DNA from: Candidatus Poribacteria bacterium
GTDB lineage: Bacteria > Poribacteria > WGA-4E > WGA-3G
Direction: 5' to 3'
DNA length: 64,000 bases
Assembly: GCA_026706025.1 (NCBI GenBank)
Contig: JAPOZO010000072.1
Location: 62,001 to 126,000, forward strand
Shown here piece by piece: positions 12,275 to 64,000 of this stretch. A model generated the notes under the pieces. The model saw nothing but the letters and a program-made list of their open reading frames with translations, made no database searches and was not told where the DNA came from. Position 1 is the stretch's first letter. Each line of letters begins with the position of its first letter. The position numbers and the translations under genes are program-made.

Positions 12275-12400
12275 CCGTCAGCCATCAGCCGTCAGGGCGG
12301 TTTTTTCTACAAAAAACCTTTCAGCGGTCAGAGAAGAGATGTTCGATTTGTCTAAAACCCTCTTAACTGACTGCTGACAGCCGACTGCTGATAGCCAATA
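12275..12400. repeat. GTCAG/GATAAC-type interspersed repeat inside the transporter operon
   Basis: GCCGTCAGCCATCAGCCGTCAG, a TTTTTTCTAC/AAAAAACC segment, then CTGCTGACAGCCGACTGCTGATAGCC. It is a diverged copy of the repeat family and separates the binding-protein gene from the first permease gene. Confidence 0.7.
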
Positions 12401-12417
12401 AAACAGGAGACACACCC

Positions 12418-13404: not shown

Positions 13405-13622
13405 TTTTTTCGATTACCTTGCGGTTCGGTTAGGTGGATTTGACACTTGAAGTCCCACTCCGTTTATCTGCCTTCCACTTCGTTTCAGGCTACGGTCACT
13501 CACTATTTTTCATCAGAAACCCGATTTTTTGACCATCAACTCGACTCCGAACATAATATAGAAAGGCACGAGTTGATGATCAAATCGGAAAAATCGGAGT
13601 AGAAACCCAATATTTTAAAAAT
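13405..13622. repeat. Intergenic gap with CATCAACTCG hairpin element (copy 1)
   Basis: Inverted repeat ACCATCAACTCG (13532-13543) and CGAGTTGATGAT (13569-13580). The loop edges ACTCCG...GGCA and the flanks CCGATTTTTT / AAATCGG are also symmetric. A second, more perfect copy lies at 43287-43339. Confidence 0.75.
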
Positions 13623-14717: not shown

Positions 14718-14724
14718 AAGGCCC

Positions 14725-14836
14725 CCCAGGCCCGGTAGGTGCGATTTCCTAATCGCACCGGATTTTAGGCACAAACCTTACCCAGGCCCGGTAGGTGCGA
14801 TTTCCTAATCGCACCGGATTTTAGGCACAAACCTTA
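14725..14836. repeat. Two tandem 56-bp palindromic (REP-like) units
   Basis: Two near-identical 56-bp copies (14725-14780, 14781-14836). Each contains CCCGGTAGGTGCGATT, a short loop and AATCGCACCGG, followed by TTTTAGGCACAAACCTTA. A related single copy interrupts the end of rsmI at about 28990. The hairpins could also act as a terminator or processing site after the permease gene. Confidence 0.85.
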
Positions 14837-14859
14837 GTTGATACCTATGGAGAAACAAC

Positions 14860-46121: not shown

Positions 46122-47072
46122 CTACGGAAGCGTATCCATGATGTCTGATTCGATTTCAAAATAACGACTTAAACTGAAATAGCGTTCCCCGGTGTCGGGG
46201 AGAATGGTAACAACTGTTTTATCGGGTCCCTGCGCCTTTGCGACCTGTAACGCGGCATAGACATTTGCACCGGACGACATCCCGACCAACAATCCCTCGG
46301 CTGTTGAAATTGACTTCATCATTTCGTAAGCCTCTTTTTCGGAGACTGTGATGACTTCGTCAATGACATCTACATTGAGCACTTCAGGAATCATCCCTGC
46401 GCCGAGTCCATCAATCCGGGTAGGCCCCGGTTTCCCACCGGAAAGCACTGCCGAAACACGCGGCTCCACAGCAACCACTTTCACATTCGGGCACGCTGTC
46501 TTCAGGACTTCTCCAACCCCTGTCAGTGTGCCGCCTGTGCCGACCCCTATAACGCAAAAATCGATGTCAGTACCGATTGCCTTGAGAATTTCGACTGCTG
46601 TCGTACGGCGATGAATTTCGGGGTTTGCGGGGTTTGTGAACTGGTTCGGCATATAGTGCCGCGGGTTCTGTCGGACGATTCTCTCCGCCTCCCAGATCGC
46701 ACTTGCCATACCGCCGTGCTCCGGGGTCAGCACAATTTTTGCACCGAAGGCAGAGAGGAGTTCATATTTTTCGCGGCTCACATTTTCTGGCATCGTCAAA
46801 GTGACAGGATAGCCTCTCGCGATCCCGACAATAGAAAGCCCCAAACCCGTATTACCAGCGGTAGGTTCAACGATGGTATCCCCTTTTCTGAGGATGCCGC
46901 GTTCTTCAGCATCAACGACCATCGCATAACTAATCCGATCCTTGATACTGCCGCCCGGATTGTAAGCCTCCAATTTTGCGAAGATCGTCGCATCGTCCTT
47001 ACCGGGCAAGGCATTCAGGCGAATCGTCGGCGTATTCCCGATGAGGTCTGTCAGATTTTTAGCGATTTTCAT
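46122..47072 (-). CDS. cysK: Cysteine synthase (O-acetylserine/phosphoserine sulfhydrylase family)
   Basis: 316 aa PLP enzyme, fold type II. PLP lysine Lys44 in NPGGSIKDR; substrate loop EPTAGNTGLGL; PLP phosphate loop GVGTGGTLTGVGE; C-terminal MSSGANVYAAL. Makes cysteine from an activated serine and sulfide or a thiocarboxylated carrier. The MoaD-like carrier and JAB peptidase downstream suggest the carrier-dependent route (CysM/CysO/Mec-like). Own sigma-70 promoter; ATG 47072. Confidence 0.93.
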   Translation of the reverse strand: MKIAKNLTDLIGNTPTIRLNALPGKDDATIFAKLEAYNPGGSIKDRISYAMVVDAEERGILRKGDTIVEPTAGNTGLGLSIVGIARGYPVTLTMPENVSREKYELLSAFGAKIVLTPEHGGMASAIWEAERIVRQNPRHYMPNQFTNPANPEIHRRTTAVEILKAIGTDIDFCVIGVGTGGTLTGVGEVLKTACPNVKVVAVEPRVSAVLSGGKPGPTRIDGLGAGMIPEVLNVDVIDEVITVSEKEAYEMMKSISTAEGLLVGMSSGANVYAALQVAKAQGPDKTVVTILPDTGERYFSLSRYFEIESDIMDTLP

Positions 47073-47502: not shown

Positions 47503-47874
47503 TTAGTCAGCCCTCCCTTTCCATAGTCTATTTCGTCTTCGTGCTATACGTAAATCTTTTCGCGGTGTGCGTTGAGACTTTTTGACAAAACCGTGCAAGA
47601 GAATTATTTCACCGGCTTCAACAGTAAACAAAACTCGCGCGATACGCTTTCCGCCGCTGATGCGGCTGCGAATTTCCCACAGACCTTCTTCGCCTTGCAG
47701 TTTTTTTCCGAGGCTCGTTCCCAATACCGAGGACCAATTTTCCGCTACAACTGTTATATCAGTGTCAATTATCATTTCATCCCTTTCTCCAAGACCTTCC
47801 AACCAGTCTCGGACAGGATCATTCCCTCGGTCTGTGCGGAAAAAGACAACGCGAAGTTCTGATTTTGTATTCAT
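47503..47874 (-). CDS. HigB/RelE-superfamily (Gp49-like) toxin
   Basis: 123 aa. Features of the phage-derived Gp49/HigB family: VRDWLEGLGERDEMIIDTDI, LGKKLQGEEGLWEIRSRI, RIARVLFTVEAGEIILLHGF, VKKSQRTPRKDLRIARRR. These are ribosome-dependent mRNA interferases. Toxin-first order with an adjacent antitoxin is typical of higBA. A probable promoter lies upstream on the minus strand (TTGGCA, 18 bp, TACAAT at about 47910-47940). Confidence 0.82.
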   Translation of the reverse strand: MNTKSELRVVFFRTDRGNDPVRDWLEGLGERDEMIIDTDITVVAENWSSVLGTSLGKKLQGEEGLWEIRSRISGGKRIARVLFTVEAGEIILLHGFVKKSQRTPRKDLRIARRRNRLWKGRAD

Positions 47875-48377: not shown

Positions 48378-50957
48378 CTAACGTCTAAAACCGAGAAAAC
48401 GTCCCTGGATTTCCTTTTCAAAGATCCCCTTGGGAAATTGTGGATCATTGAGTCGAATAATAAGCGTATCCCGAACTGTTGTTTTCCCCAGTAAACTTAA
48501 TGTTTTCCTCAATTTTATAAGCCTCTCAATAGATTCACCAGGGCGGAGTGTGCGCTGCTGCGAAGTCAGATGTGATGAGAGGTAAAACCGCAGATTTTTA
48601 AAACGCACCTCAAATATCCGCAACTCAGTTTCACCGACATTGGTAACCACTAACGGTATACCACCAGATGGTAGATTGGTGCGCTGTATCTGAGTGTTAA
48701 CATCAATCCTTGCTTGACCTCCGATAAAATCTACCGCAAATTGAATTGGAAGTGACATACCAGATTTTTTGTCCTGAAGGTGTAAACTCTCAGAAACGCG
48801 TCCAATATCTTTGGCAGCCTGCGGATTAAGCACAAGTTCACAGCGTTCAGATATATTTGCTTCAGCACTATCGTCGACCTTCAATAATCCTGTCTGTTTT
48901 AACGTATCGGGTATTTCTACGCTACACACAACGTTGCCTTTACCATCACTACGTTTTATCGTAATACCAGCATACTGTGGATCATCAAACATAAACACTT
49001 TGGGAAAATAGAGTGCCGGTGGGTCTGAAACAAGGTGGACCATATCATATTTAGCATTGAAGCGATACACGCGACGGTTCGCGAGATAGCAGTCCGTAAC
49101 CAGGGACGCACGGATCTGTTTACGATAGGCATTAGAAGGTTTTTCACTCAACACTTGAACAAGCGGTGCAGCTGTCATCGGTTCAAATGCTGTTTCGTTT
49201 TGAACACGCAGATCTCCTTCTACAAAACGTAAGACAGTAGACGGCTGCACTTGCCCCTTCAGTTCGCCTTTACCAACGATGTCCAGCGTAAGCGGAATAC
49301 GCTCTACTTTGCCTTGTTCAATTTGCGGAAAAACCAATTCCTCATCTCGGAGAATTGGAACAGCCCCATTTGTCACCCCGATAGCATAAATAGGAGCAAG
49401 AAACGACCTTATAGGTTTCCTTTCAGATTCCAGCCGTATCCATCCCAAATTGAGCCCCGGTAAGAGGCATTCGGGTTGGATTATTGCAGTTACTTCTCGT
49501 TTTTTTCTTGCAGGAAGCACAAGCGTCTCAGGTTTAATACGCATCCAGTCAGTCAGAGATTGAAGTTTAAGCCCTATCTTCTGTTTAGACCTGTTTTGCA
49601 GTGTTACCTTTTGTTCAATACTATTGATCTGTATTTTGGATGCAACTCCGTGCTGACAGCAGACTATCTCGTATAACCGCGCAGGGTCAAGCCGCATTTC
49701 CCCATCAATTTCGGCACGATAAAGGTACATTCCTTCAGAAACGCTCAGTGTAATACCGAAGCCGTCATCTCTTTTTTCAAAAAACAGTGTACGCGGTGTC
49801 CATTGATTAAAATCACCCATGAGATAACCGATCCGCTCCTCACCTGTCAATGGAAATTGAAAATCTAAATCCTCAAAAATCATCACGGATTGATACGGTT
49901 CCTCTGTTGATGCGACAGTGATCGGCAAAGGTGTTTCTTGCTTATCGAAAACTTCAACATAGTGGATATCCGGCTGTTCTTTGTCTAACACCAACGCCGT
50001 TTCTTTGGCAATTTTATACCAGGCCCACACTGATATTTTTTTATCCGCCACACCAAGTTCCGAAACATTACGCCCCGGTTTCAGTTTTTCAATGTTTACA
50101 GAAATAGGTAAATCTGTCGTATCATATCCGTTAGTTTGGATTTGAGTCGGTGCAACTAACCGACCCGAATCCGATGTTGAAATTTGCGTTGATGACTTGT
50201 GTCGGTTAACATTCGGAACTGGAATGGTTTGTTGGAAATATTTTAGTGTAATCCCAGTCTTTTCTTGTCGCGGCATTACGACCCCTGGTTTCTGCAAATC
50301 TAATTCATAAGACAATTCACCTTTTGATGTGATTATCTTTGCATCAAAAGCGGATTCGTCTTTTTGTCTAATCTCAAGATGGGTTGGTGGGTAAAGTATA
50401 AAATCTCCGACAAGTAGAAATTCGGCTGTCGGTGCCACCGCATCTTCACGACTATCAGCAATTGAGACTTTATAGACAGTTATTTCACCAAAGTTGATAT
50501 ATTCGGGAAGTATCAAATGTGTAGATTGATTGTCTGGGGGATGAACACCTAATAATATCTTGCTAAACGTTTTTCGTTTTGAATTGGAAATGACGTTCAG
50601 TTCTGCTGTATTCACGGATGAAGGATTCGGTAGTGCTTTTAGTAAAAGTTCCAGTTCAAGCTCTACTGGTTCCGATGTCGGTGTAAGTGTAGCCCGTTTC
50701 GATCCTTGTGCCCTCTTTATCCACTCTCCATATACACGAGGAATACTAATTCGTTCTACATCTAACTTGCCACCGCCAACATTTGATACCATCACCTTTA
50801 CAGATTGGTTCGGATTATCAAACGTATCTAAATAGATGTTCGCATCAGTATAAAGGTACGGTTCATTAATCGGGGTAACTTTGAATGGAGGTTCTTCCGA
50901 TTCCGGTGCCATGGGTAGGTATAGCAAACTATGAATGTTTTTTAGATGATTAATCAT
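48378..50957 (-). CDS. Large beta-sandwich protein with Ig/ASH-like repeats and a CBM48-like module
   Basis: 859 aa from ATG 50957 (GAGG 9 nt upstream; TTG 51020 and ATG 50912 are alternatives). No signal peptide or membrane helix is obvious. Several domains of about 100 residues look like Ig/ASH (abnormal spindle, SPD-2, Hydin) folds: VMVSNVGGGKLDVERISIP, VTLQNRSKQKIGLKLQSLTD, PLVVTNVGETELRIFEVRF. In the middle (about 380-440) IGYLMGDFNQWTPRTLFFEK, DDGFGITLSVSEGMYLYRAE matches the AMPK/isoamylase-type CBM48 fold. Last intact gene of the minus-strand train. Similar Ig-type domains occur in the Hsp70-like protein at 55797. Role unknown. Confidence 0.65.
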   Translation of the reverse strand: MINHLKNIHSLLYLPMAPESEEPPFKVTPINEPYLYTDANIYLDTFDNPNQSVKVMVSNVGGGKLDVERISIPRVYGEWIKRAQGSKRATLTPTSEPVELELELLLKALPNPSSVNTAELNVISNSKRKTFSKILLGVHPPDNQSTHLILPEYINFGEITVYKVSIADSREDAVAPTAEFLLVGDFILYPPTHLEIRQKDESAFDAKIITSKGELSYELDLQKPGVVMPRQEKTGITLKYFQQTIPVPNVNRHKSSTQISTSDSGRLVAPTQIQTNGYDTTDLPISVNIEKLKPGRNVSELGVADKKISVWAWYKIAKETALVLDKEQPDIHYVEVFDKQETPLPITVASTEEPYQSVMIFEDLDFQFPLTGEERIGYLMGDFNQWTPRTLFFEKRDDGFGITLSVSEGMYLYRAEIDGEMRLDPARLYEIVCCQHGVASKIQINSIEQKVTLQNRSKQKIGLKLQSLTDWMRIKPETLVLPARKKREVTAIIQPECLLPGLNLGWIRLESERKPIRSFLAPIYAIGVTNGAVPILRDEELVFPQIEQGKVERIPLTLDIVGKGELKGQVQPSTVLRFVEGDLRVQNETAFEPMTAAPLVQVLSEKPSNAYRKQIRASLVTDCYLANRRVYRFNAKYDMVHLVSDPPALYFPKVFMFDDPQYAGITIKRSDGKGNVVCSVEIPDTLKQTGLLKVDDSAEANISERCELVLNPQAAKDIGRVSESLHLQDKKSGMSLPIQFAVDFIGGQARIDVNTQIQRTNLPSGGIPLVVTNVGETELRIFEVRFKNLRFYLSSHLTSQQRTLRPGESIERLIKLRKTLSLLGKTTVRDTLIIRLNDPQFPKGIFEKEIQGRFLGFRR

Positions 50958-51013
50958 AAACCTATGCCTCAAGGCGTGCAGGTTCCCTATTGCTCTACGC
51001 AACTTACAAATAA

Positions 51014-52066
51014 CTACCAATCTAACGGACTTTTTGATTCCTGTGTATCATCATATTGTGTATTATCATCGTGCCAATCGTCATCATCGTCCGCGAAGAC
51101 GAAACGGTAAACTACATACGCAATCGGTATTCCCAAACCAATGAGAATAAAGAGCGTTGCAATTACCATACCCACTGCACTATTTGTCTTTGAGGCATCC
51201 TTCTTATTAGGTTTAGGCTTTTCAGGTTCAGGTTTCGGTTTCACGGGTTCAGGCTTTGGTTGGATAGGTGGTGTTTCCAGTGTAGGCTCCGGTATAACGG
51301 GTGTTGGTTCTGTCTCTGGTGTGGGTGTCGTTACCTTGTCAGGTTTCGGTGCGGGTCCCACTTTAGAAGGGCTTAACGGGACAATTGCCTCTACAGTTTT
51401 TCCGACAGACGCAGGGAGTGCGCCAACAGTCCAACCCGTCCCAGTCGTTTCACAATAGAAGTACTTTATGCCGTTGTAGGTCAACGATGATCCTGTGAAG
51501 TCTCCACTGACACCAATCGCAATGTGTCCAGGCGTAAAAATCAGGGCAGTCTCTTCTCCTAATCCGCGCAGAATAGCCCCCACCAAGATCGTTGTATCTT
51601 CGCAGTCGCCGCCCCCTTCAATCAACGTTTCAACGGCATATCGTCTAAATTCATCATAACCTGTCGTTACATCATCAAGGGTATATGGTAAGGATTGGAC
51701 AAAACTTAAGACGAAATCAACGTGATCCTGCCGTTTCCAGTTGCGATTTTGCTTGAAGATGCGTTGAAACTCACGCGTCAGATTGCCGATCGTTGTTCTA
51801 CCCTCTTCGACCAATTTGGGAATATCGTAGCGTTCTTTGCCGGAGTATGAATTATACTTTTCCAGATCAATTGTCATCAGGACAGTGTAGGGTTTACCCT
51901 TAAAGTTCCACACATACCGCCGCCCGATTGTCTGGCGAGTATTGGGAGGGCGTTGTTGTGCTATACCCTCTACAATCCTGACAAAACTGAGGGCATCATT
52001 TGCAATAGCATCTGCATTGATAAGCAGTCCAGTGACAAGCAGAACGATAAGGAGTCTGATGGACAT
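51014..52066 (-). CDS. Membrane-anchored transglutaminase-like cysteine protein
   Basis: 350 aa. Signal peptide 1-22 (MSIRLLIVLLVTGLLINADA). Transglutaminase-like domain about 95-230 with the catalytic triad pattern Cys155 (GGGDCEDTTIL), His181 (TPGHIAIGV) and Glu206 (YFYCETTGTGW). A Pro/Glu/Lys-rich linker (230-300) leads to a membrane helix (MVIATLFILIGLGIPIAYVV) and a very acidic tail. The catalytic domain should be outside the cytoplasm and the tail inside. GGAG for this gene lies in the last codons of the preceding GrpE-like gene. Could be a protease or cross-linking enzyme. Confidence 0.78.
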   Translation of the reverse strand: MSIRLLIVLLVTGLLINADAIANDALSFVRIVEGIAQQRPPNTRQTIGRRYVWNFKGKPYTVLMTIDLEKYNSYSGKERYDIPKLVEEGRTTIGNLTREFQRIFKQNRNWKRQDHVDFVLSFVQSLPYTLDDVTTGYDEFRRYAVETLIEGGGDCEDTTILVGAILRGLGEETALIFTPGHIAIGVSGDFTGSSLTYNGIKYFYCETTGTGWTVGALPASVGKTVEAIVPLSPSKVGPAPKPDKVTTPTPETEPTPVIPEPTLETPPIQPKPEPVKPKPEPEKPKPNKKDASKTNSAVGMVIATLFILIGLGIPIAYVVYRFVFADDDDDWHDDNTQYDDTQESKSPLDW

Positions 52067-52069
52067 GTT

Positions 52070-53155
52070 CTATTCTCCGCGTATTACTACCGGCTTCTGT
52101 ATGATTTCACCATCTGCTACACGCCTAAGACCTGGTAAAATAACCTCAACAACAGTTCCACATTCTCCATTGGTTTGCCGTGAGCCTTGAATGTCATGTA
52201 CACGGGCATCCGCTTGCGTTTTGCCTATCTCAATCGGGACGACTTCATAACCAACGAGTTGTAGGCACTGCTCTAATTGTTCAGGCAGTTGGTCAGATGC
52301 AGTAAACCTTGCTACACCGTTGAATAGTCTATCTTTGATAAATTGCGATATGAATTGGTCGTATTCTTCTGAGTTTTCTTGTTCACACTCGGTAATGGTT
52401 TTCAATTTTTCTTTGAAGGCTTGCTCTGAATACCGCAACGTTTGAACGAGATCCCGATTTGCTGCGTAGGATTGTTCTAATTCAGTTATCCAATCCCGTA
52501 TAGTATGTTCTATCTGGTTTACAATTATCGGTTCTTCTTCAGTTAACGTGATATTTTCATTTTCAACAAATTCGATCAGTTTGTCATCTTGGGTAACTTC
52601 CTCTAATCCAATCTCATGTTCCGTTTTATCCAGATAAGTCGTCTCTGTTTCTTGCCGAATATCGGTTGAAATTTGTATTTGTGTGTTGTCTGTTTCCTTT
52701 TCAGGTTCTGTTTCCTTGGGTATAGTAATCTTCGGGTGGTATTCTGTTTCTTGTTTTGCAACTGGCGATTTGATTTCAACCTGTGGGGACTTAGTAATCA
52801 CTTCTTTTTCTGTTTCATTTAGTAATTCCTTTAAATCCAAATCAGAAGTTGAACTCTGTTTTCTACCGTCAAGGCGACAATAGAATTCTATCCATTTCAT
52901 AAATCCTTCAGGCAATTTCAAGGTATGCGTCTCGCCACTAAATAGCTGAACACACTCCATTAAAACCGTGCCACTGTTACTGGCTTTCCGACAGTGAATA
53001 AAAATCCGTTCTTGGTTATCCCCACAGTTTTCCAATATGAGAATTACTTGATCACTGTCTGACTGGAGTGAAATATTAATATCTCCGATTTTACCCGAGT
53101 GTGATGAAGTGTCTCTATTGTCAATAGCACCAAGTTTTATCATTTCCTGTCTCAT
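52070..53155 (-). CDS. Soluble protein with C-terminal GrpE-like domain (paralogue 2)
   Basis: 361 aa, no membrane helix. N-terminal beta domain about 10-95 (GDINISLQSDSDQVILILEN), a Thr/Glu-rich middle (about 110-220) and a C-terminal domain (about 265-361): EYDQFISQFIKDRLFNGVAR, EQCLQLVGYEVVPIEIGKTQ, ADARVHDI, GTVVEVILPGLRRVADGEII, QKPVVIRGE. The last part has the layout of the GrpE beta-wing (family pattern D-P-x-x-H then GTV..V...GY.....vLRPA.V.V). The C-terminal 95 residues are nearly identical to those of the gene at 53160. ATG 53155 has GGAGAG upstream, 4 bp after that gene's stop. Confidence 0.7.
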   Translation of the reverse strand: MRQEMIKLGAIDNRDTSSHSGKIGDINISLQSDSDQVILILENCGDNQERIFIHCRKASNSGTVLMECVQLFSGETHTLKLPEGFMKWIEFYCRLDGRKQSSTSDLDLKELLNETEKEVITKSPQVEIKSPVAKQETEYHPKITIPKETEPEKETDNTQIQISTDIRQETETTYLDKTEHEIGLEEVTQDDKLIEFVENENITLTEEEPIIVNQIEHTIRDWITELEQSYAANRDLVQTLRYSEQAFKEKLKTITECEQENSEEYDQFISQFIKDRLFNGVARFTASDQLPEQLEQCLQLVGYEVVPIEIGKTQADARVHDIQGSRQTNGECGTVVEVILPGLRRVADGEIIQKPVVIRGE

Positions 53156-53159
53156 GCAG

Positions 53160-54473
53160 TTACTCTCCACGAATCACTACCGGTTTCTGTATGATTTCAC
53201 CGTTATCTATTCGCTGCAATCCGGGTAAAATGACCTCAACAACAGTTCCAGGCTCGTCATTGGTCTGCTGTGAACTTTGAATCTCATGTATACGGGCATC
53301 CGCTTGCGTTTTGCCTATCTCTATAGGAACAACTTCGTAGCCCACAAGCCGTAAATATTCATCCAATTGTTCAGGCAGTTGGGCAGATTTGACAAATCTT
53401 GCTACACTATTGAATAGCCTATCTTTAACGAAATGCGGAATGAACTGGTCATATTCTTTCGCTTCTATTTCACATCCCAGTTGAAGTCCAATCAGAAGCC
53501 CTTCATAACGCGACACATAAGCGATACACTTATTTTGGAATTCGTTATACGCCGCATCTGTATTGACATCAGTTTCCAATTCAGGAGGTTCTGGCACAGG
53601 TGGTGCCGGTCCACGAATCTCTTTCAGTTTGTCTTTAATAACCTGATTCCCATATCCAAGCGTTTGAATGAGCTCTGGGTTCGCGGTGCCAGATTGTTCT
53701 AAATCATCTTCCCAATCCTCTATTGAGCGCGCCATCCAATTCAATATCTGCAATGTAGTTTGACTGGGGGTTGGATCTTCAATATCAATCCAATCAATTG
53801 GTTCTCCATTTTCGTATGTCTGGACTAATGACTCAACTTGCGTTCGCGTTTCTTGGCTAATCCCCTCCAATTGCAGTTGTTCATCAACAGTTTCATCTGG
53901 CACTTTGTCCAAATCCAAATTCATTAATGTAAGCTCAAAACCATCTAAACGGTTTCCGAGTTTAGATAAAGCGTTCTGGAAATTTTTCTGTTCATCGTGA
54001 AGTTGGGAATAGTTTGATACTGTTTCCTCTATTTTTTCAGTATTGTCTTTGCCTTGTCGACGAATATGTTTTAATTGCCCCTCCCAACGTTGATTGATTT
54101 CGTTCAATCTATTCTGCCACCCTCGTTCGCTATTTTCAAATTCGTTTTGCAGCTGACGAATTTTCCGCATACTTAGAAAAAACATTACCACAATTGTTAG
54201 GACGATGATTGCACCAAAAATCATAGCATAAGTTTGGAACGGATTGTCTAACGAATCTTGTAAGGCAGAGAGCTCATGTTTCAATTCCGTGATTTGTTTT
54301 TCTAAGGAGTTGACATGAGACTCTAAAGGGTTTAGTGTTTCAGAGGGCTGCTCAACAAGACTCGGTTCGTCGTTTGACTGTTCCGAAGCGTCCTGTGAAT
54401 ACACAAGGGGGGTTACTCCAACAAGTATCAGTGCCAATAAAAATAGAACATATCTGAATTGATGTATTTTCAT
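53160..54473 (-). CDS. Membrane-anchored coiled-coil protein with C-terminal GrpE-like domain (paralogue 1)
   Basis: 437 aa from ATG 54473 (GAGGG just upstream; ATG 54485 possible). Signal peptide-like N-terminus (FRYVLFLLALILVGVTPLVY), a short extracytoplasmic coiled coil (ESHVNSLEKQITELKHELSA), a membrane helix (TYAMIFGAIIVLTIVVMFFL), then cytoplasmic coiled coils (about 100-190), a Pro-rich linker and the GrpE-like domain (about 340-437: VKDRLFNSVARFVKSAQLPE, VGYEVVPIEIGKTQADARIH, GTVVEVILPGLQRIDNGEII). GrpE is the exchange factor of DnaK. Two Hsp70-family genes lie directly upstream, so this may be a membrane-bound exchange factor for them. Confidence 0.72.
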   Translation of the reverse strand: MKIHQFRYVLFLLALILVGVTPLVYSQDASEQSNDEPSLVEQPSETLNPLESHVNSLEKQITELKHELSALQDSLDNPFQTYAMIFGAIIVLTIVVMFFLSMRKIRQLQNEFENSERGWQNRLNEINQRWEGQLKHIRRQGKDNTEKIEETVSNYSQLHDEQKNFQNALSKLGNRLDGFELTLMNLDLDKVPDETVDEQLQLEGISQETRTQVESLVQTYENGEPIDWIDIEDPTPSQTTLQILNWMARSIEDWEDDLEQSGTANPELIQTLGYGNQVIKDKLKEIRGPAPPVPEPPELETDVNTDAAYNEFQNKCIAYVSRYEGLLIGLQLGCEIEAKEYDQFIPHFVKDRLFNSVARFVKSAQLPEQLDEYLRLVGYEVVPIEIGKTQADARIHEIQSSQQTNDEPGTVVEVILPGLQRIDNGEIIQKPVVIRGE

Positions 54474-54527
54474 TTTTTCCCTCATAAAGAAGCGCAATGA
54501 ATTGTGCTACTACAAGCAAGTTTTGTC

Positions 54528-55784
54528 TTAATCCATCAAAACTGGCACGGTAAATTCAACCGATCTCGTCTCTTGTGAATTTGGGAGATGTAAAGCAAAT
54601 GTGCCATGCGTAGCATCATTCAAGGTAACAGAAAGTATAAATTCCATTGGACTGTTTAATGTATACTTTTTATTCTCCTGCGGGACAATTTTAAGCGTAG
54701 CAAGATGAAACACATCACTGTTTTCTGTCATAGATAAACCACAGTAAAGATGAACATCGAATTCTGTAACATCACCCGTGACGCGAAAGGCTTTTTTCCG
54801 GTGATAGGGCGGTGTCCATGTATTCGGGACAAGTTCAACCTTTTTTCCATCAGGTAAACGCACCCCGAAGCAGAAATGATAGACAAAATGGAGCGGTTTT
54901 TCAAGATTTTTCTCTTCAAATTGCCGCACCAATTCTGCCCCGCCCAAGAGCGTTGCGGTTTCCTGTGGGTCAAGAAATGTTGCGCTGCAGCGCGCTTGCA
55001 ACAATTCAATGAATTTTAGAGCAGTATCGTCAATTCTGCCAGAAAAACCGACTACAACGTGTTGCTCGTCCACAACCTGTTGCAACATCTTTTGCACATC
55101 TGAAACCTTTTCATCTGTATCTACGAAGAAGTCAATAAACCGCAGTATATCGGTCAACTCTATTATAACACTACTCTCCAATTGACTACAATTCGTCCGA
55201 TAAACTACAAAATCATTCTGCGCAAAATCTACCAGAAACAGATGGCATTTGTTTGCGTCAGCGAGTATATTCGCCCACGCCTTCTGATAATATACCGAAA
55301 TACATAGTGTTTGACTGAGCACACTCCGCAGTGTCACGTTTGATGTCTTGAGAAATGGTACCGATACATCACTTTTTAAACGCTTGAATGTTTTTCTGAG
55401 CTGCCGGCGATGTATAGGTTTCCACTGATACGGCGTAATCGCGTATACCGACATCGCTTCAATTGGATATCCATGCTGTGGTAGCTGCCGATGAAAAATT
55501 TCTTCAAGAAATGCAGTAAATAAACATTCCAAGGTTTTTTCATCTGTGATTTCCTTGAAATGCGTGTCTAAATTGGGAAACCGAACTTCCACCGGATGGT
55601 TTGAGCTGAGACGTTCAAATGCTTCTCCAAAACAGGGAACTAATGTGTCTTTGTTTTCCTGACGAAAACCGATCTCCCATGGTAGACTGAGATTGATGTC
55701 TTTTAGTTGATTGTCAACTAAAACAACTACCTGAATTTCAGGTGCTGATAGATTGATGATGCATACGCGTTTTGACATTGGCAT
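54528..55784 (-). CDS. Degenerate Hsp70-like protein (pseudo-ATPase with substrate-binding beta domain)
   Basis: 418 aa. The order of landmarks follows Hsp70: YAITPYQWKPIHRRQLRKTF resembles VITVPAYFNDxQRxATKxA; LFLVDFAQNDFVVYRTN stands where LVYDLGGGTFDVSI is expected, but the GGGT phosphate loop is lost; VVVGFSGRIDDTALKFIELL corresponds to VLVGGSTRIPxVQxLL; then LLGGAELVRQF. From about 300 (FGVRLPDGKKVELVPNTWTP, FDVHLYCGLSMTENS, LATLKIVPQENKKYTLNSP) it resembles the Hsp70 substrate-binding beta-sandwich. The N-terminal phosphate-1 loop DxGTT is also missing. Probably no ATPase activity. 12 bp downstream of the intact Hsp70-like gene. Confidence 0.62.
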   Translation of the reverse strand: MPMSKRVCIINLSAPEIQVVVLVDNQLKDINLSLPWEIGFRQENKDTLVPCFGEAFERLSSNHPVEVRFPNLDTHFKEITDEKTLECLFTAFLEEIFHRQLPQHGYPIEAMSVYAITPYQWKPIHRRQLRKTFKRLKSDVSVPFLKTSNVTLRSVLSQTLCISVYYQKAWANILADANKCHLFLVDFAQNDFVVYRTNCSQLESSVIIELTDILRFIDFFVDTDEKVSDVQKMLQQVVDEQHVVVGFSGRIDDTALKFIELLQARCSATFLDPQETATLLGGAELVRQFEEKNLEKPLHFVYHFCFGVRLPDGKKVELVPNTWTPPYHRKKAFRVTGDVTEFDVHLYCGLSMTENSDVFHLATLKIVPQENKKYTLNSPMEFILSVTLNDATHGTFALHLPNSQETRSVEFTVPVLMD

Positions 55785-55796: not shown

Positions 55797-58496
55797 TCAA
55801 ATTTCATTTACAAATTCTGGCTCTCTCCTCTCAACTGTAGATTCATATTCATGATTATCCACAAGTGCCACCACTTTAATTTCCCCATTCTCTTTAACCG
55901 CCATTTTCAAACACGCATTCTGTAATGCCTCTCTCGGTATATTCTCAGGTAACGTTAGAGTGTAATCGTCAATGCGTGACAGTTCATCATTTGTTCTAAA
56001 ACGTTCACGAATATCAATATTAGTTTCTCCTTCACTCAGCAGGATATTCACTCTACCGAAACTTTCGTCAGGAATAAGCCTTCCTTTGGGAATAATTTCT
56101 TCAAAAACCAGTTGTCTACCATCGGACTGCATTATACCGATGCTGGCGTGTGTCTTGCGGAAGTTTTTAATTTCAAACCGAACTCTACTCGGTGATGAGT
56201 GAGTCATACCGTATTGCGCTGCACCTATTGCGACGCATTCTTTCGGTGAATCGCTGAGTTCGATATCAATATCATCGGTTTGGTATTCCTGTTGGAAGTG
56301 GGTTGTCATCATCTCCTTAACCATGGGCATTTTTGATGATTGACCTGCAAGTATCACGATTTCAGGCAGGTGTCCACCATTTTCTCTAATCATAGCGTCA
56401 ATATCAGCAAAGGTCTGGCGTAATTCATTGGCAACAAGTGAATGTAATTGTTCTTTTGAAATACTTACGTTAATGTCCCCTCGGGTAAGATTTTCAAGCG
56501 GGCGGGTATCATTTCCAACAATCACGTTCAAAGGAAAGTCACGGTTTGCTTCATCTTCATCGCTTAGTTCTTTTTTCAATTCCTCTGCTCCATTATACAA
56601 ACGGGACGTGTTAAATAGTTTTGCTCTATCCTCTCTTTGATCTCCTAAACTTTGCCATATTTCTCTCGGACTTAGGTATGGGATCTTATAACGAAGATTT
56701 AAACTTTCTCTTTCAATTCGTTGTCCAAATTCAGCCAACACAAAGTCAACAATTGCCTGAGTTACATCATCACCACCATATTTGGGATTTCCGCCGTGTG
56801 CAAGCGGTTCAATTGTGATTTCGCGACCATTATTGGTTACTTGTGAAAGAACGATATCGATAGTCCCACCGCCGAAATCATAAACCAACAGTCTATAATC
56901 GCCTTGTTGCCTTCGTTGAGAAATAGCCCCGAGTGAAGCCGCCGATGCTTCATCAATGAATATAAGATCGGTGATCCCGACTTTTTCAAACGCCTGTTTT
57001 ATGTCTTCTTGTTGTTTTCTATTAAACATTGTCGGATAGGTAATCACACATTTTTTAATTCTTGATCTTGTTGAGAGAGTGTCCAAGTGTTCTTCGGCAC
57101 GTTGAATAATATGTCTGAGTATATCAGCAACTACATCCCTTGGTTGCAATTCCAGATTGTTAGGAAATTGGCGTCTCCAGTTATATCCTAACCACCTTTT
57201 TACGGAACTGATGTAGTAAGGACCATCAATTTCGCTCGTGCGAGCGGTCTCTGCTCCATAACCAACTTCGTATACATCCCCATTTGTAGGCTGACTGTGA
57301 TAGATAATTGAGGAAGGTATGATATTCAAAGGATCTTCGCTGTTCAATTGGATAAGTTGGAAAACATCTTCAGCCCCAAAATAAGCACAACACGAACTCG
57401 TTGTGCCAAAATCAATAGCGAGGTAATGCGGGTACGCTTCCAGTTCTTCAACATTTACATTCAGGCCCCCTTCATATGTTGGATCATCCCCACAATTGGA
57501 GTTTATAGTAAAGTTAACAGGATAAGTTTTGGGATCAATACCAATGGCAGAAACCTGTATTTCAATATTATGGTGTTCTCCACCTTCAATATTTATAGGG
57601 AACTCAAGGTTTGGCAGCTGGACTAATTTGGAAGGACCGTTGAATACAATATTCCGAATTGTCAACGGACGTTCGCCTCTGTTCTCAAGCGTTAAGGGAT
57701 GTGTTTTCTCGCGATCCTGTGTGATGTCCAGGTTCATTGGTGGCACGAACAGTTTTGGCGGTTCTGGTTCTATCTCTCTTCGGATGTGAACTTGTTTGTC
57801 AATAGGTTGGGAAAAGCCACGGAGTTCAAAACTTAGTTTTACTACATTTACTTCGTCGCTGAGTTGGTTGCAGTCAATCTCCAAACGGACTTTTTTCAAC
57901 GCGTTGTTTTTTTCATGGAGGCTTTCAAAATAACCAACGCGAAGAATTGATCCGCCTGTGATTTTAATATTGGTGATATAAAATTTACCCTGTAGCACTT
58001 CAAGGTGGAGGTCTTTCGTCACCTTTTTCGTTCCTCTCCGATAACGAACCTCTATAGGATTTGGGGGCAGTTTAAATTCAGGACGTAATGAAGCCTCAAG
58101 ACGTAGTGATTTTTCGCTTTCAAAATTCGATGGAGCATCTTGAGCGCGCACAGTAATGGTTTTGGGATTTTGTGCTAATTTTGCGGGCTTTACCTGAATC
58201 GGCACTGCATGGAATTGACCCGCCTCAACCTCAAAAGGACTGTCATTCGCTTGTGGAAATAGAATTGTGTCATCCCTTGTCGTTTGAATCGGATGGAATG
58301 TAATCGGATAGGCACCGGTGTTTTCTACGAGAATAGCAAAGGCATGGATATTCGCACCGCTATCTGCGTAAATCAACGGCTCTTTTTCCCATCTCACCGA
58401 GAAATCAAAGACTTTACAACCACAATAACCACAATGTTTATCATGCGAATGAATTACCCAACCGACATTGCATTTTGAACAGATAGGGTCAGCCAT
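55797..58496 (-). CDS. Hsp70-family ATPase with N-terminal zinc ribbon and Ig-like domains
   Basis: 899 aa. Residues 6-27 form a zinc ribbon (C6xxC9, C22xxC25). About 30-350 are two or three Ig/CARDB-like sandwiches (AILVENTGAYPITFHPIQT, LTLENRGERPLTIRNIVFNG). The Hsp70 domain starts at about 358: phosphate-1 AIDFGTTSS (360-366), VITYPTMFNRKQQEDIKQA, phosphate-2 VYDFGGGTIDIVL (about 540), adenosine motif IVILAGQSSKMPM (about 717), AIGAAQYG. A substrate-binding beta domain follows (GIMQSDGRQLVFEEIIPKGR), with a short C-terminus lacking a full lid. All ATPase loops look intact. Its RBS AAGGAG lies inside the last codons of the tubulin-like gene, so the two are translationally linked. Confidence 0.85.
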   Translation of the reverse strand: MADPICSKCNVGWVIHSHDKHCGYCGCKVFDFSVRWEKEPLIYADSGANIHAFAILVENTGAYPITFHPIQTTRDDTILFPQANDSPFEVEAGQFHAVPIQVKPAKLAQNPKTITVRAQDAPSNFESEKSLRLEASLRPEFKLPPNPIEVRYRRGTKKVTKDLHLEVLQGKFYITNIKITGGSILRVGYFESLHEKNNALKKVRLEIDCNQLSDEVNVVKLSFELRGFSQPIDKQVHIRREIEPEPPKLFVPPMNLDITQDREKTHPLTLENRGERPLTIRNIVFNGPSKLVQLPNLEFPINIEGGEHHNIEIQVSAIGIDPKTYPVNFTINSNCGDDPTYEGGLNVNVEELEAYPHYLAIDFGTTSSCCAYFGAEDVFQLIQLNSEDPLNIIPSSIIYHSQPTNGDVYEVGYGAETARTSEIDGPYYISSVKRWLGYNWRRQFPNNLELQPRDVVADILRHIIQRAEEHLDTLSTRSRIKKCVITYPTMFNRKQQEDIKQAFEKVGITDLIFIDEASAASLGAISQRRQQGDYRLLVYDFGGGTIDIVLSQVTNNGREITIEPLAHGGNPKYGGDDVTQAIVDFVLAEFGQRIERESLNLRYKIPYLSPREIWQSLGDQREDRAKLFNTSRLYNGAEELKKELSDEDEANRDFPLNVIVGNDTRPLENLTRGDINVSISKEQLHSLVANELRQTFADIDAMIRENGGHLPEIVILAGQSSKMPMVKEMMTTHFQQEYQTDDIDIELSDSPKECVAIGAAQYGMTHSSPSRVRFEIKNFRKTHASIGIMQSDGRQLVFEEIIPKGRLIPDESFGRVNILLSEGETNIDIRERFRTNDELSRIDDYTLTLPENIPREALQNACLKMAVKENGEIKVVALVDNHEYESTVERREPEFVNEI

Positions 58497-58501: not shown

Positions 58502-61500
58502 CTACTCCTTCTTCCGAGTGCCTTTACGCTGCAATGTCTGTTTCACATCCACATCTTTAACCGAGAATCCTGTAGAAGGCTGTTTCTCCTGTTCATCAGT
58601 TTTAGGCTGTGGTTGCTGCTCTGCAGGAGACTCTTCGCCCGTCGTGTCCTCTGCGGAACTGTGTTCCGTTTCAGGTGTTGCCTCAGACCACTGATATTCA
58701 TCTGTAGTCGCATCTGGTGTGCTGTGTTCTGATAGTGAGTCTTGTGGTGGTCCCGCATTATCTTGGTTAAATGATCCAGTATCAATCTCGCTTTCCTCGG
58801 AAGCAGCTTCTTCATAAGAATCTGAGCCTACTGGTGCGTTTGTAGCATTTCCGTTGCCGACATCTTGGGATGATGTTGAAGGTGCGTCGTCCGATGCTTG
58901 GGATGGAGTTTTCTGATGTATTTGGGGCGGTGGCTGGAAAAAGGTTGACCCCGATATTGAGTCAGAACCGGTATTATCTATAGAAGCATCCTCAGAGTAG
59001 ACATCATCTAAAAACCGACGGAAAAATTGACTTATATTTGCGTGTTCATTGTTGTCTTGAATTTCCCTCAACAATGAATCAATAAGTTTCTCAACCTTTT
59101 GACGGTTTAGCTGCGTGAAACATGAACGGACTGCATTGATAAATTTGTTATACTCAACTTCATTTTTCTTCTGCGAAAACCTTTTAATTCCATCCGGATC
59201 ATTATGCAAGTCGAGTCGCTCGGATAATCCATCAACGTTATATTCATAAACATATCCGTTCTTAGTCTGAAAAAAAACACTGGCAAATGCATCTTCTTTT
59301 ATCTTCTGACATATTTCAGGAACGATCCTTCCTAAAGCACGACACCATTGTTGTAGTTTTTGGATTTTGTCGTATAGCTCAAGGTTATAAAAGTCGGCAT
59401 CCTTATGAGTTGAATGTCCATATTCCCCTGGAGTCTGCCGGCATTTATCAGCAAGTGTTGAGTGAGAAACCAAGTCATCTAAGGCAAAACCTGCTTCCTC
59501 TTGATAGAAAAAAAGGAGATGATCCACAGAAGAGGGACTTATTTCAAACAAGAATCCTTTACCACTTAAACTGTTGTTTAAGTCAGTTAAAGCCTTCCCT
59601 ATGTGTCCGAAGATAATATTTGGTGAATCCTCAACGACAAACGGTATGTACATAGGGGTGAACATTTGATATGGGTTTGAGCGGCCGGCAAGATTCTGGA
59701 TGTCGGAACTTCCTGAATCTAAAAGTTCCTGAGCCTTTGTAACCACATCATTAACTTGAATTCGATCTAATGATAGTTGTCGGTAAGTTTCAGTCATCTG
59801 AGTGATTATGTCTGCCTGTTCTTTTCCTAAAAATGTAGCCATAGATTCTCCGCGGAGCAATTCAATACCTTCATCTGATTGGGCGATCTGGTGGCTCAGT
59901 GTCGATGCATCTATATCAATTCGATTTTCTGAGTTATTCGCAACAATTTTCACACATTCAGATCTTGGTGGATTGATAGCTTCATTACGTTCGCTCTTGA
60001 ATTCCTGAAGGCAGTTATTTAGATTCGCTTCTATCTGATCCAATCGCTGTTTAATGGTTCGACGACGGTTCGGTTCACCTCCATCCATCGGGGTTACTCC
60101 AAAACCGAGGTCGGTGCGAATTTCTTGTAAAATCGGTTTTATGAAATGATTCCGAACTGACTCATAGAAACTTGTTGGACTTCCGATAATCAAACTACAA
60201 TACCCCTTAACCATGTTATCGCGATGTGCTTTAACCGAATCATCCCGAAGAAAAATAAGTTTCAACCAAAGATTATTATCCGCCCTCTCCATTCGGGAAA
60301 AATCCAATTTATCTAAATTTAAAGTCGGCATCCGATCAGGGCAATTTTGTATAGAGTTTTCTATCTTTTTATCAAGCGTTTCAAAGAACATCCTCACATC
60401 GCCCAAGCCCCACGTTCCCTCAAAATCAATACTTCCTAATTGATTGTTCAAAGTTTGTTCAATCGCCTCGCTAAGTGCCTTTTTGCACTCAGGCACTTGC
60501 ATATTCATCAACTCAACATACTCTCCACCTTGCTCAAATTTCTTTCTGAATGAATCCCCGATTGGAAACTCCTCCATATTCCGATTTAATTGATTGGATG
60601 AGATTTCTGTATTGAGCCATTGCTTCCTGGCATTTGCAAGATGTGTATCAATGCGACTCTTAATTGATGATTGTCCATCTGGGCTGGTTAATGTATCTAT
60701 ATTCGCGTTTAGAATCCGATTCCATTCCGTTTCTGCGTCTTTTACAGTCGTGGCTTGAGGGATGTGTGATTCTAGCCAGTTATTACATAATTTTTCGCCG
60801 ATTGAACAAGCAGCAGCACTTGCGATGCGATATTTGGGATACCATACAGCAGTTAATCCAAAACTCGCCATATATCGTATCATTGTGCGGATTTCGCCTT
60901 CTCTCACAGGTTTTAAGGTCCCAAAATCAGCATGAGCTGTATAATTGGTGCGGATTGCATTTTTCACTCCACCTGTGTCTGCAGCAGATTCAGCAAAAAG
61001 ATTCAGTGCTACCATCAAGTTCAGACCGTGTTCATCAAAGTCACCAGCCCCTGTTGAGAATTGGTTGCCCGCAATTTTTCCGCTGGGCGATACAAACAGC
61101 GTATAATCAAACGGCTTTTCTCGCATATTCTTAATCTGCCGCCCATCTGGAAAAGTTATATCATAAGTTGTTTCCTGATGATGATAGTAATTTAACTCCG
61201 AAAGGCTTGCATAACAATTGGCTGAACGTATGTTAAACATAGCATCTGGTCTCGCAGCATGGTTCTCGTCGAACATTGTAAAAATGCCATTAATTCTTGA
61301 TTTATCGCCATAGGCACTGAGAAGGTATCGGAAAAAATATCCAACATCAATAAGCATCCCACTACAGGAACCACCGCAGAGAGACCCTAGCACATAAACT
61401 CTGATGGAGCCTGTATCGTCAAGGGGATGTTCTGCAATTTTTTTACGTTCTGTTAGAATATTGATCGCTTTCCGTTTCGTAGCGGGTGCCATAATAGCAC

Positions 61501-61909
61501 CGATCGCGTTGGCAAATGTAGCTTGGACATCAGACCAGTTTTCCCATAAACACAATCTACCTGCCATACGTATATTTGAAGCTCCATCCATAAAACCGCC
61601 TGCTTCAATTTTCAAGAGTTCAGGATCTAGCCAGTCCACTAAATCTGGGTTGTGCAGCGGTTCTCCTGGAGTCAACTTAAGTCGAATCGGACTAACGTTT
61701 GGAATCGTTGCCCTTATAAGATTGATTCGTTCATAATCATCCATTTGATTTGTATTTTGCACATTCACTTCACCATGTGTCTCAATGGCAATATAGCGGA
61801 AAAGTGGTAGCCCCGCGTGTCCGTATTCTTCAGACATAAGTTCACGTAATTTTACTAAAATTTCCTTCCCGGTTGTTCCGAGGCCAACAAATATTGTAGG
61901 TGTAATCAT
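58502..61909 (-). CDS. Tubulin/FtsZ-superfamily protein (Tub_2-like) with acidic C-terminal tail
   Basis: 1135 aa. N-terminal MITPTIFVGLGTTGKEILVK carries the first nucleotide-binding loop (GLGTTG, 9-14). GSLCGGSCSGM at 175-185 is the tubulin signature loop (GGGTGSG equivalent), followed by LIDVGYFFRYLL. FDYTLFVSPSG and STGAGDFDEHGLNLMVALNL fit the rest of the GTPase domain. This is the pattern of the bacterial tubulin-like (Tub_2) family. A long helical middle follows (about 370-990), then a Ser/Thr/Glu/Asp/Pro-rich tail (about 1000-1110) and a basic end (QTLQRKGTRKKE). The start is ATG 61909, preceded by GGAGGAG; an ATG at 61924 is in frame but contains that RBS. Likely a GTP-dependent polymer. 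Confidence 0.85.
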   Translation of the reverse strand: MITPTIFVGLGTTGKEILVKLRELMSEEYGHAGLPLFRYIAIETHGEVNVQNTNQMDDYERINLIRATIPNVSPIRLKLTPGEPLHNPDLVDWLDPELLKIEAGGFMDGASNIRMAGRLCLWENWSDVQATFANAIGAIMAPATKRKAINILTERKKIAEHPLDDTGSIRVYVLGSLCGGSCSGMLIDVGYFFRYLLSAYGDKSRINGIFTMFDENHAARPDAMFNIRSANCYASLSELNYYHHQETTYDITFPDGRQIKNMREKPFDYTLFVSPSGKIAGNQFSTGAGDFDEHGLNLMVALNLFAESAADTGGVKNAIRTNYTAHADFGTLKPVREGEIRTMIRYMASFGLTAVWYPKYRIASAAACSIGEKLCNNWLESHIPQATTVKDAETEWNRILNANIDTLTSPDGQSSIKSRIDTHLANARKQWLNTEISSNQLNRNMEEFPIGDSFRKKFEQGGEYVELMNMQVPECKKALSEAIEQTLNNQLGSIDFEGTWGLGDVRMFFETLDKKIENSIQNCPDRMPTLNLDKLDFSRMERADNNLWLKLIFLRDDSVKAHRDNMVKGYCSLIIGSPTSFYESVRNHFIKPILQEIRTDLGFGVTPMDGGEPNRRRTIKQRLDQIEANLNNCLQEFKSERNEAINPPRSECVKIVANNSENRIDIDASTLSHQIAQSDEGIELLRGESMATFLGKEQADIITQMTETYRQLSLDRIQVNDVVTKAQELLDSGSSDIQNLAGRSNPYQMFTPMYIPFVVEDSPNIIFGHIGKALTDLNNSLSGKGFLFEISPSSVDHLLFFYQEEAGFALDDLVSHSTLADKCRQTPGEYGHSTHKDADFYNLELYDKIQKLQQWCRALGRIVPEICQKIKEDAFASVFFQTKNGYVYEYNVDGLSERLDLHNDPDGIKRFSQKKNEVEYNKFINAVRSCFTQLNRQKVEKLIDSLLREIQDNNEHANISQFFRRFLDDVYSEDASIDNTGSDSISGSTFFQPPPQIHQKTPSQASDDAPSTSSQDVGNGNATNAPVGSDSYEEAASEESEIDTGSFNQDNAGPPQDSLSEHSTPDATTDEYQWSEATPETEHSSAEDTTGEESPAEQQPQPKTDEQEKQPSTGFSVKDVDVKQTLQRKGTRKKE

Positions 61910-61958
61910 CGCATGCTCCTCCATATTTAGTTAAAGATTCCGTTAACATCAGTTTTCA

Positions 61959-62354
61959 TCACTTCTTTTTTGGATTAAGAGATTTACCAACTGGTTTTGG
62001 AGTCGGCGCGTCAGTGTTCTTTTTTTCTTTATTTTTCTTTAACAGTGTATACAATAAACAGACATTAACAAGCATAATCACTATATAGAATAACAGATAA
62101 AGTACTGTATACAACCCTTCAGAAAATCGGTTATGTGCTCTGTCCCAAAGCCAGATTAGAAGCACCGTTCCACCGAGTATATGTATAAAAAGTGCAATTC
62201 CCCACGCTATTGCTGCCGCACGCTCAATACTTACTTGGTTCTTAAATAGATGACCAAGTCCACATGCAATTATCCATACAAAAGAATAACCAATGAAGTA
62301 GACAACTGCTGGCCAAACCAACGGATCTCCAAAAAAATCAGCGATGCTTTCCAT
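61959..62354 (-). CDS. Small membrane protein (four helices) with basic C-terminal tail
   Basis: 131 aa. Hydrophobic segments at about 13-33 (VWPAVVYFIGYSFVWIIACG), 46-70 (AAIAWGIALFIHILGGTVLL) and 80-105 (LYTVLYLLFYIVIMLVNVCL), with a possible fourth near 62-72. The tail is Lys/Pro rich (KKNKEKKNTD, NPKKK) and predicted cytoplasmic. No family recognised. It lies 49 bp upstream of the tubulin-like gene and may be its membrane partner. RBS AAAGGAAAAGGGG ahead of ATG 62354. Confidence 0.65.
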   Translation of the reverse strand: MESIADFFGDPLVWPAVVYFIGYSFVWIIACGLGHLFKNQVSIERAAAIAWGIALFIHILGGTVLLIWLWDRAHNRFSEGLYTVLYLLFYIVIMLVNVCLLYTLLKKNKEKKNTDAPTPKPVGKSLNPKKK

Positions 62355-62620: not shown

Positions 62621-64000
62621 TCATACATCAAGGGGATTGGTATCAGAAGCGTTATTCGACCAAATAATAGGTTCATCATCGTCCTCTGGTTTGTTAGAAG
62701 TGTTATCCACTATCTCACAGTTAATACGGATCTCATCATCGTCATCACCTTGATTTAACATTAGTATTTCGGGTAAATCTAATATCCGTCCTTCATCGTC
62801 GTCAGCATCTGCAAATAGCAGTAAATTTTTCTTATCGCAATATAAAAAAGCCTCACTACCAATATCAAACTGCAATTCATCAGGACCCCGAGGACCAAAT
62901 TCAAGTGTCATTTTATTTTTAAGCATAAAATATGCTTTCTCACCCAACGGTGTACCTGCCTGGCTGACTTGAGTCAACCCAATGTGATGGGCAATTTGAT
63001 ACGGAATTAAACGGCGAATTAAAAGAAAAAGAATTACACTTAAAATCGGAATAAGGAACACCCACAGCAGCCACATCGGGAAGCCGCTGCCACCACCTAT
63101 CAGTTTATAAGGAATCTCAATTGTCGCAGATTTAGTTTCATTTTCATATTTATAGTCTATTTCAAGGACAATTTTGTTGCCGCGCCAATCCAATCGGTCT
63201 CGTTTAGGCACTACCATGCTAAAAGGTTCGCCTAAACGTTCACCTACTTTCGGTACAGTAACGTCACAAAGTTTTCGCCCATCTTTGTATTGGACCTGAC
63301 AACGAAGTTGATCTATCCTAAAAGCCTTTTTGTTATAACTTTCGCTCTGAACAGCAAGACCAACATGGTATGTGTCTTCCGAAAAGTTCAGATTCAATTC
63401 CTTTGTCTGCTGTTCAGAATTATCCAAATTAGACACATATATACTATCAATCCTCGGTGTATATTTGATAGGTTGGGGTGAATGGATTTTGTTTTTACCG
63501 TTGAAACTGTAGGTAATTTCAAGTTTCAATGCGTTGCCAGGAGCAGCTATTTCCCTATGTGCAGGAAATAGGATGCGGAACTCGAATGGTGGAGGGTTTC
63601 CATGAAGTGAAACAGATGGGACTTCAACAACACCAAATGTGTTCTCTTCAGTCACAATCTGAAGCGGTTTGTTAAACTTATCCACAATTTCCACATTGAC
63701 ACTGTCGAGTTTAAATTTAGGTTTCTTGGAATTGTGCGTCTTAACAGTTAAGGTTTCACTGATAAATTTCCCTTCATCATCTCTGTCAAGTTGAATCTCT
63801 CGCACTCGTTTTCCTAGTTCTGTTGATGTAGCGAGGAAAATCGAGTCAATTACGTCGCTCTTCTGAAGTTTTCTGACTTGAATTCTAACGTGTTTATTTA
63901 CAAGCATACTAAAAATCATTGGTGAATGGAACTCATCTTCAATTTCCGCATGTCGCTTTAACACTTCAGATATGCCAGGGTCGCTTTTGCCGCTGTTATC
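62621..64000 (-). CDS. Membrane protein with beta-sandwich domains, N-terminus beyond window edge
   Basis: The frame is open from the stop at 62621 to the window edge (459 codons). A GTG at 63964 could be read as a start, but the frame continues upstream (SGKSDPGISEVLKRHAEIED), so the gene is probably longer. About 25-290 are beta-rich, Ig-like segments (FEFRILFPAHREIAAPGNAL; NKIVLEIDYKYENETKSATI). One membrane helix follows (FPMWLLWVFLIPILSVILFL), then a cytoplasmic part with a beta domain and a strongly acidic tail. Related gene sets often contain a VWA protein; whether this one has a VWA domain cannot be seen from here. Confidence 0.65.
   Translation of the reverse strand, partial: DNSGKSDPGISEVLKRHAEIEDEFHSPMIFSMLVNKHVRIQVRKLQKSDVIDSIFLATSTELGKRVREIQLDRDDEGKFISETLTVKTHNSKKPKFKLDSVNVEIVDKFNKPLQIVTEENTFGVVEVPSVSLHGNPPPFEFRILFPAHREIAAPGNALKLEITYSFNGKNKIHSPQPIKYTPRIDSIYVSNLDNSEQQTKELNLNFSEDTYHVGLAVQSESYNKKAFRIDQLRCQVQYKDGRKLCDVTVPKVGERLGEPFSMVVPKRDRLDWRGNKIVLEIDYKYENETKSATIEIPYKLIGGGSGFPMWLLWVFLIPILSVILFLLIRRLIPYQIAHHIGLTQVSQAGTPLGEKAYFMLKNKMTLEFGPRGPDELQFDIGSEAFLYCDKKNLLLFADADDDEGRILDLPEILMLNQGDDDDEIRINCEIVDNTSNKPEDDDEPIIWSNNASDTNPLDV

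Follow-up and report, generated by a model that had tools for sequence, protein, structure and literature searches.

What does an Hsp70 that carries a zinc ribbon and Ig-like domains in front of its ATPase do beside the gene for a tubulin-like protein? The question is raised by a gene from Candidatus Poribacteria bacterium, a member of a group of sponge symbionts (GCA_026706025.1, contig JAPOZO010000072.1, positions 62,001-126,000). This stretch of 64,000 nt is referred to as the window, and positions are given in its numbering. The open reading frame lies on the minus strand, starts with ATG, has 55797 and 58496 as its exact limits and is found in one copy in its genome. The product of 899 amino acids is here called Hsp70N.

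Canonical DnaK has its ATPase at the N-terminus and a helical lid at the C-terminus. Hsp70N departs from this layout at both ends, with about 355 residues before the ATPase and about 12 after the substrate-binding beta domain (SBD-beta), and it falls far below the DnaK equivalog cut-offs (116 bits against 648, NCBIfam). It does match the HSP70 family (Pfam, 5e-33, best stretch at residues 448-592), and the AlphaFold2 model (mean pLDDT 75, pTM 0.52) displays, from N to C, a small N-terminal unit, three beta-sandwiches up to about residue 350, the ATPase, SBD-beta and a short tail past residue 887. The corresponding limits are 1-30 for the zinc ribbon, about 31-350 for the sandwiches, 357-770 for the ATPase and 782-886 for SBD-beta. 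The best Foldseek match of the model reaches 8e-28. Residues 354-888 align with DnaK structures at Z 35-36 over about 460 residues, and the NBD alone has the Hsp70 ATPase fold (Z 35 and rmsd 3.0 over 367 residues against solved structures). The catalytic motifs are intact and invariant across nine orthologues: DFGTT at 362, K433 in VKRW, IDEASAAS at 514, YDFGGGTID at 539 and AGQSSK at 717. Judged by its model, Hsp70N is a genuine member of the Hsp70 superfamily, lidless and with a complete set of ATPase motifs.

An earlier note on this DNA had described a ribbon and Ig-like domains ahead of an Hsp70 ATPase, and that description is borne out. The four cysteines of the ribbon (C6xxC9/C22xxC25) are invariant in all nine Poribacteria orthologues and are also kept in an incomplete orthologue found in a second phylum, the model has its sandwiches in the expected place, and residues 53-123 give a weak HYDIN/CFA65-type Ig-like match (Pfam, 5e-5) just below the family cut-off. 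The note had also called the C-terminal lid reduced. It was right that the protein departs from DnaK there, but the lid is absent rather than reduced because the chain stops about 12 residues past SBD-beta, which is itself complete: it is modelled as a beta domain and the DnaK alignment reaches residue 888. A proposed likeness between these Ig-like domains and those of the protein encoded from 48378 is not established, as the Ig-type matches of that protein are weak and of a different kind (Cep192, 0.03).

Hsp70N is the seventh gene of an operon of 12 genes, all on the minus strand and in the order U1, U2, U3, U4, U5, Tub_2, Hsp70N, D1, D2, D3, D4 and D5. The genes mostly overlap or are separated by less than 35 bp, with one gap of 266 bp. 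The first genes lie beyond the end of the window. These are U1 (66579-68777), which is ZorA-like with a long coiled-coil tail (ZorA3 in PADLOC, 2.2e-14), U2 (65916-66554), which is ZorB-like (ZorB3 in PADLOC, 4e-25; OmpA, 4.8e-16), U3 (64552-65919), with a zinc ribbon and a beta-propeller-like part, and the rest of U4. The latter gene (62621-64000 in the window, running to about 64567) encodes a signal peptide, a vWA domain with an intact MIDAS motif (DVSxS), an Ig-like region and a TM segment. Both the MIDAS residues of U4 and the TM aspartate of U2 are conserved in orthologues. U5 (61959-62354) is a small multi-TM membrane protein. The tubulin-like gene, Tub_2 or FtsZl1 (58502-61924, 1140 amino acids), stands directly upstream of Hsp70N with a gap of 5 bp. 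Its product matches the Tubulin_2 domain well above the cut-off (Pfam, 5.7e-41) and has the loops GG[ST]CSG and GLGTTG conserved among orthologues.

Downstream of Hsp70N follow D1 (54528-55784, 418 amino acids) and then D2 (53160-54497), with a signal or TM segment and a coiled coil, and its paralogue D3 (52070-53170), which shares the C-terminal domain of D2. D4 (51014-52066) has an N-terminal signal, a transglutaminase/LapG-like cysteine-protease domain (LapG in NCBIfam, 4e-4; Transglut_core in Pfam, 0.06) and a C-terminal TM segment, and the Cys, His and Glu motifs GGGDCED, PGHIA and CETTG are kept in seven orthologues. D5 (48378-51020, 880 amino acids), the last gene, encodes a beta-rich, Ig-like protein with an AMPK1_CBM-like segment. 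None of the 12 proteins has a P-loop motif, no GTPase family was found in Pfam or NCBIfam scans of the operon proteins, and no known defence effector (nuclease, NADase or pore) is evident in the operon, where PADLOC recognises the motor pair only. A J-domain HPD motif is likewise not encoded in the operon, so that an Hsp70 cycle would need a J-protein from outside or run without one.

The protein following Hsp70N is best read as a second Hsp70, degenerate and probably non-hydrolysing, on the basis of a low-confidence AlphaFold model (pLDDT 61). Sequence comparison of D1 gave no significant match, and Hsp70 homology could not be found by sequence alone. By fold, all 50 Foldseek matches listed for the model belong to the Hsp70 family and cover ATPase and SBD-beta (best 8e-9), and with VIA-align Z reaches 10.6, with an rmsd of about 3 over about 108 residues in the SBD part. 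D1 has the ATPase fold and SBD-beta, is without lid and has lost the nucleotide-binding motifs: in place of DLGTT, DLGGGT and GGSxR it has NLSAPE, VDFAQND and GFSGRI. In another genome of the phylum (G065; L058, 14338-17967) Hsp70N is fused at its C-terminus to the C-terminal domain of D2/D3 in a protein of 1209 amino acids, and this supports a working link between the two. The domain may be GrpE-like, a lead that comes from the same fusion and from inspection by eye. No test of this was significant and shuffled sequences score as high: Pfam gave 0.05-0.13 for one member only, and hhalign gave 0.44, aligned at the right region.

The pairing with Tub_2 is strict. Hsp70 with the N-terminal extension occurs in eight of 84 genomes of the phylum and has Tub_2 immediately upstream in all eight; in one of these (G062) the contig breaks off within Tub_2, so that only the end of the gene is present. 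Six of the eight (G000, G025, G044, G063, G065 and G077) share the same operon in the same order, and G035 and G062 hold partial copies at contig ends. D2/D3 is a single gene in G025 and G035. Two further genomes of the phylum (G060 and G061) have Tub_2 without the extended Hsp70. That all eight carriers fall among the ten genomes with Tub_2 gives a P of about 1e-9 if the genomes are taken as independent; because they are related, a stronger argument is that the two genes stay adjacent across lineages. Scanning 84,980 species genomes by pattern, which detects close relatives only, gave eight loci, all recorded as Poribacteria, and added one complete operon of 12 genes (L094) with the same order and with Hsp70N directly downstream of Tub_2. 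Searching by way of Tub_2 led to a small second phylum, where one genome (G387) has U4, U5, Tub_2 and Hsp70N in the same order before the contig ends. Another genome of that phylum (G346) has U3, U4 and Tub_2.

The genomic pattern supports a functional tie between Hsp70N and Tub_2. Co-occurrence with Tub_2 was a check set beforehand, and the eight carriers, L094 and G387 all have Hsp70N directly downstream of Tub_2. The earlier note had held that wide occurrence of the architecture in genomes without a tubulin-like gene would speak against the link. The opposite was found: two samples of 386 genomes each, which overlap, were searched by profile and gave no carrier of Hsp70N without Tub_2. The link is supported, and it is broader than a pair of Hsp70 and tubulin, taking in 12 genes with a ZorA/ZorB-like motor and a second Hsp70. 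The N-terminal domains may bind the polymer or the membrane proteins of the operon, as the earlier note had proposed. The association rests on about ten loci in two phyla, hence on few independent lineages. No carriage by phages or plasmids was seen, since a search of IMG/VR with the N-terminal part of Hsp70N gave no match and the plasmid matches listed cover the Hsp70 domain only. A compact Tub_2 operon elsewhere (G273; L130, 8086-15092) encodes a vWA-like TM protein, a ZorA-like protein of 508 amino acids and a ZorB-like protein of 223 amino acids, with no Hsp70; pairing of ZorAB with a tubulin occurs outside Poribacteria as well.

As the gene trees conflict, lineages have evidently swapped parts of the operon. 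In the Tub_2 tree, the genome studied here (G000) pairs with G044, which belongs to another family (100/100), and G025 pairs with G035, while in the D5 tree G000 pairs with G025 (100/99). Between G000 and G025, identity is 86-97% in the flanking genes and 65% in Tub_2. The GC content is about 0.39-0.44 in the operon and about 0.41-0.49 just outside.

The place where the operon stands is a swappable, defence-type hotspot. When the interval from a CysM-like gene (46122-47072) to the gene at 69699 is compared in sister genomes, it is nearly empty in two (G018 and G023) and holds the 12-gene operon in two (G000 and G025). Six others (G001, G003, G006, G019, G027 and G032) have ZorB-like, ZorA-like and LapG-like proteins there, in what is called the type B cluster, whose LapG-like protein is 65-70% identical to D4. 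The one cluster of this type read in detail (G032; L156, 2179-13983) also encodes a tubulin-like protein (Tubulin_2, 3.9e-9), a protein of 1011 amino acids with Hsp70/actin-like sequence motifs and a lipoprotein, and is directly followed by a gene for a ThsB-like TIR protein (L156, 1684-2151; Pfam, 1.1e-7). Three genomes (G004, G007 and G009) have an Hsp70 that begins with its ATPase, accompanied by a GrpE-like membrane protein and in G004 also by a secreted vWA protein. A sacsin/HNH protein of the TmtA family is found at the locus in G005, and G014 has one that is visibly similar. At the edge of the island, between the CysM-like gene and D5, G000 has a Gp49-like gene (DUF891, RelE-like; 47503-47874, minus strand; Pfam, 3.2e-15) that was not seen there in G025. 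No tRNA that might serve as integration site was found within 40000-64000.

A short protein closely similar to the ThsB-like TIR protein of G032 is encoded at this locus in G083. The clusters of Hsp70 and GrpE-like protein found there (L079, about 4700-15000; L080, about 7500-14800; L084, about 7200-15300) have Hsp70s of 796-853 amino acids and a GrpE-like protein with several TM segments (Pfam GrpE, 9e-4 in L079); L079 also has a secreted vWA protein and L080 has two Hsp70s side by side. In a sister genome (L074, 2038-9416), Hsp70 and GrpE adjoin two FGE-sulfatase proteins, one of which is a caspase-PEGA-FGE-sulfatase protein.

The operon may be a conflict system. The exchange between lineages, the sporadic presence, the empty state of the site, the defence-type alternatives at the locus and the Zorya-type motor favour such a system, and about even confidence can be given to the reading that Hsp70N is an ATPase-competent, lidless Hsp70 which regulates such a system from the cytosol, the system being exchangeable, anchored in the envelope and most likely directed against phages. 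A ZorA/ZorB-like proton motor, encoded by the first two genes and held on peptidoglycan by its OmpA domain, would sense disturbance of the envelope jointly with the LapG-like protease and with the vWA protein, which lies outside the cytoplasm. The signal would be carried through the long cytosolic tail of the ZorA-like protein. Hsp70N would dock by way of the ribbon and the Ig-like domains at its N-terminus. Working with D1 and perhaps with the membrane-anchored D2/D3, it would use its ATP cycle to control the assembly or disassembly of the Tub_2 polymer, the presumed output of the system.

A different role has been proposed for FtsZl1/Tub_2 operons with vWA, OmpA and TM proteins, namely membrane remodelling (Makarova and Koonin 2010, PMC2875224). 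Tub_2 of the present operon is FtsZl1, its vWA, OmpA and TM partners fit that description and several operon proteins are membrane-linked by sequence, so a cytoskeletal machine can be considered in which the Tub_2 polymer gives membranes or vesicles their shape, the two Hsp70s assist its assembly as chaperones and no conflict is involved. Such a machine is a possible explanation of low probability. It would be unusual for a determinant of cell architecture to be sporadic (eight of 84 genomes) and absent from near sister species, and equally so to occupy a hotspot that is empty in some genomes and holds defence-type alternatives in others, and to have mosaic trees.

ZorAB-like pairs are also part of the larger MotAB/ExbBD/TolQR family, with its roles outside defence. 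The motor could therefore serve envelope stress or transport as one branch of that family, with the LapG-like protease and the vWA protein as active parts and with Hsp70N and D1 as maintenance chaperones. Consistent with this, the NCBIfam matches of U2 include MotB, T6SS and Pal-like OmpA proteins, D4 resembles LapG, and a LapG-like protein again accompanies ZorAB in the type B cluster. This explanation is unlikely in that it accounts neither for an Ig-bearing Hsp70 being so strictly paired with a tubulin nor for the exchange with islands carrying TIR and TmtA proteins. That Hsp70N is a plain housekeeping chaperone whose N-terminal domains are decorative is highly improbable, for although its ATPase and SBD-beta are complete, the genome has genes for another, DnaK-like Hsp70 and for a canonical GrpE at other places, and the Hsp70N gene is missing from most relatives and always lies within the Tub_2 operon.

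The conflict system proposed here has partial counterparts among known systems. GAP1-N2-type GTPase-centric systems (Kaur et al. 2020, PMC7159879), which are predicted conflict systems, include tubulin-like, vWA, TM and zinc-ribbon proteins, and another subset has HSP70 and GrpE, some with a second HSP70 that lacks the peptide-binding domain. The operon shares these protein types and the Hsp70 theme. However, the tubulin and HSP70 themes are described there as non-overlapping and centred on a GTPase, whereas the Poribacteria operon joins a tubulin with two Hsp70s, has a ZorAB-like motor and yielded no GTPase component. The second Hsp70 is also the reverse, as D1 keeps the SBD and has lost the ATPase motifs. 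From Zorya it has the ZorA-like protein with a long coiled-coil tail and the ZorB-like OmpA protein, the PADLOC matches of U1 and U2. In place of ZorC-G, for which PADLOC found no match in ten operon proteins (all but U5 and D3), there are Tub_2, two Hsp70s, a vWA protein and a LapG-like protein. The FtsZl1/Tub_2 operons mentioned above are alike in Tub_2 and in the vWA, OmpA and TM proteins, but PMC2875224 names neither Hsp70 nor DnaK as a component, and its genome-context section has no MotA/ZorA-type protein. Among the open-access titles and abstracts listed for Poribacteria with tubulin, or for ZorA/ZorB with tubulin or DnaK, none describes such a system.

Divergent Hsp70s that act as partners are exemplified by Ssz1 and Hsp110. 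D1 would resemble them as the divergent member of a putative pair with an active Hsp70; unlike them it is a separate, lidless, far more diverged and bacterial protein.

The operon and its hotspot suggest a tubulin system of a new kind, controlled by chaperones and perhaps directed against phages. More tentatively, the operon might represent a new class of bacterial immunity, driven by a proton motor, in which a two-Hsp70 machine of active Hsp70N and a pseudo-Hsp70 responds to a signal from the envelope with the controlled assembly of a tubulin-family polymer. The type B cluster, with ZorAB, another tubulin-like protein and a large protein with Hsp70/actin motifs, would be an independent example of that principle. 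If the reading is right, one conserved operon unites Zorya-type motors, FtsZl1/Tub_2 operons and HSP70-bearing conflict systems, which have so far been described apart, and offers a concrete candidate for the role and the control of a bacterial tubulin. A lidless, Ig-bearing Hsp70 beside a degenerate one would also be a natural experiment on how much of the Hsp70 cycle can be dispensed with.
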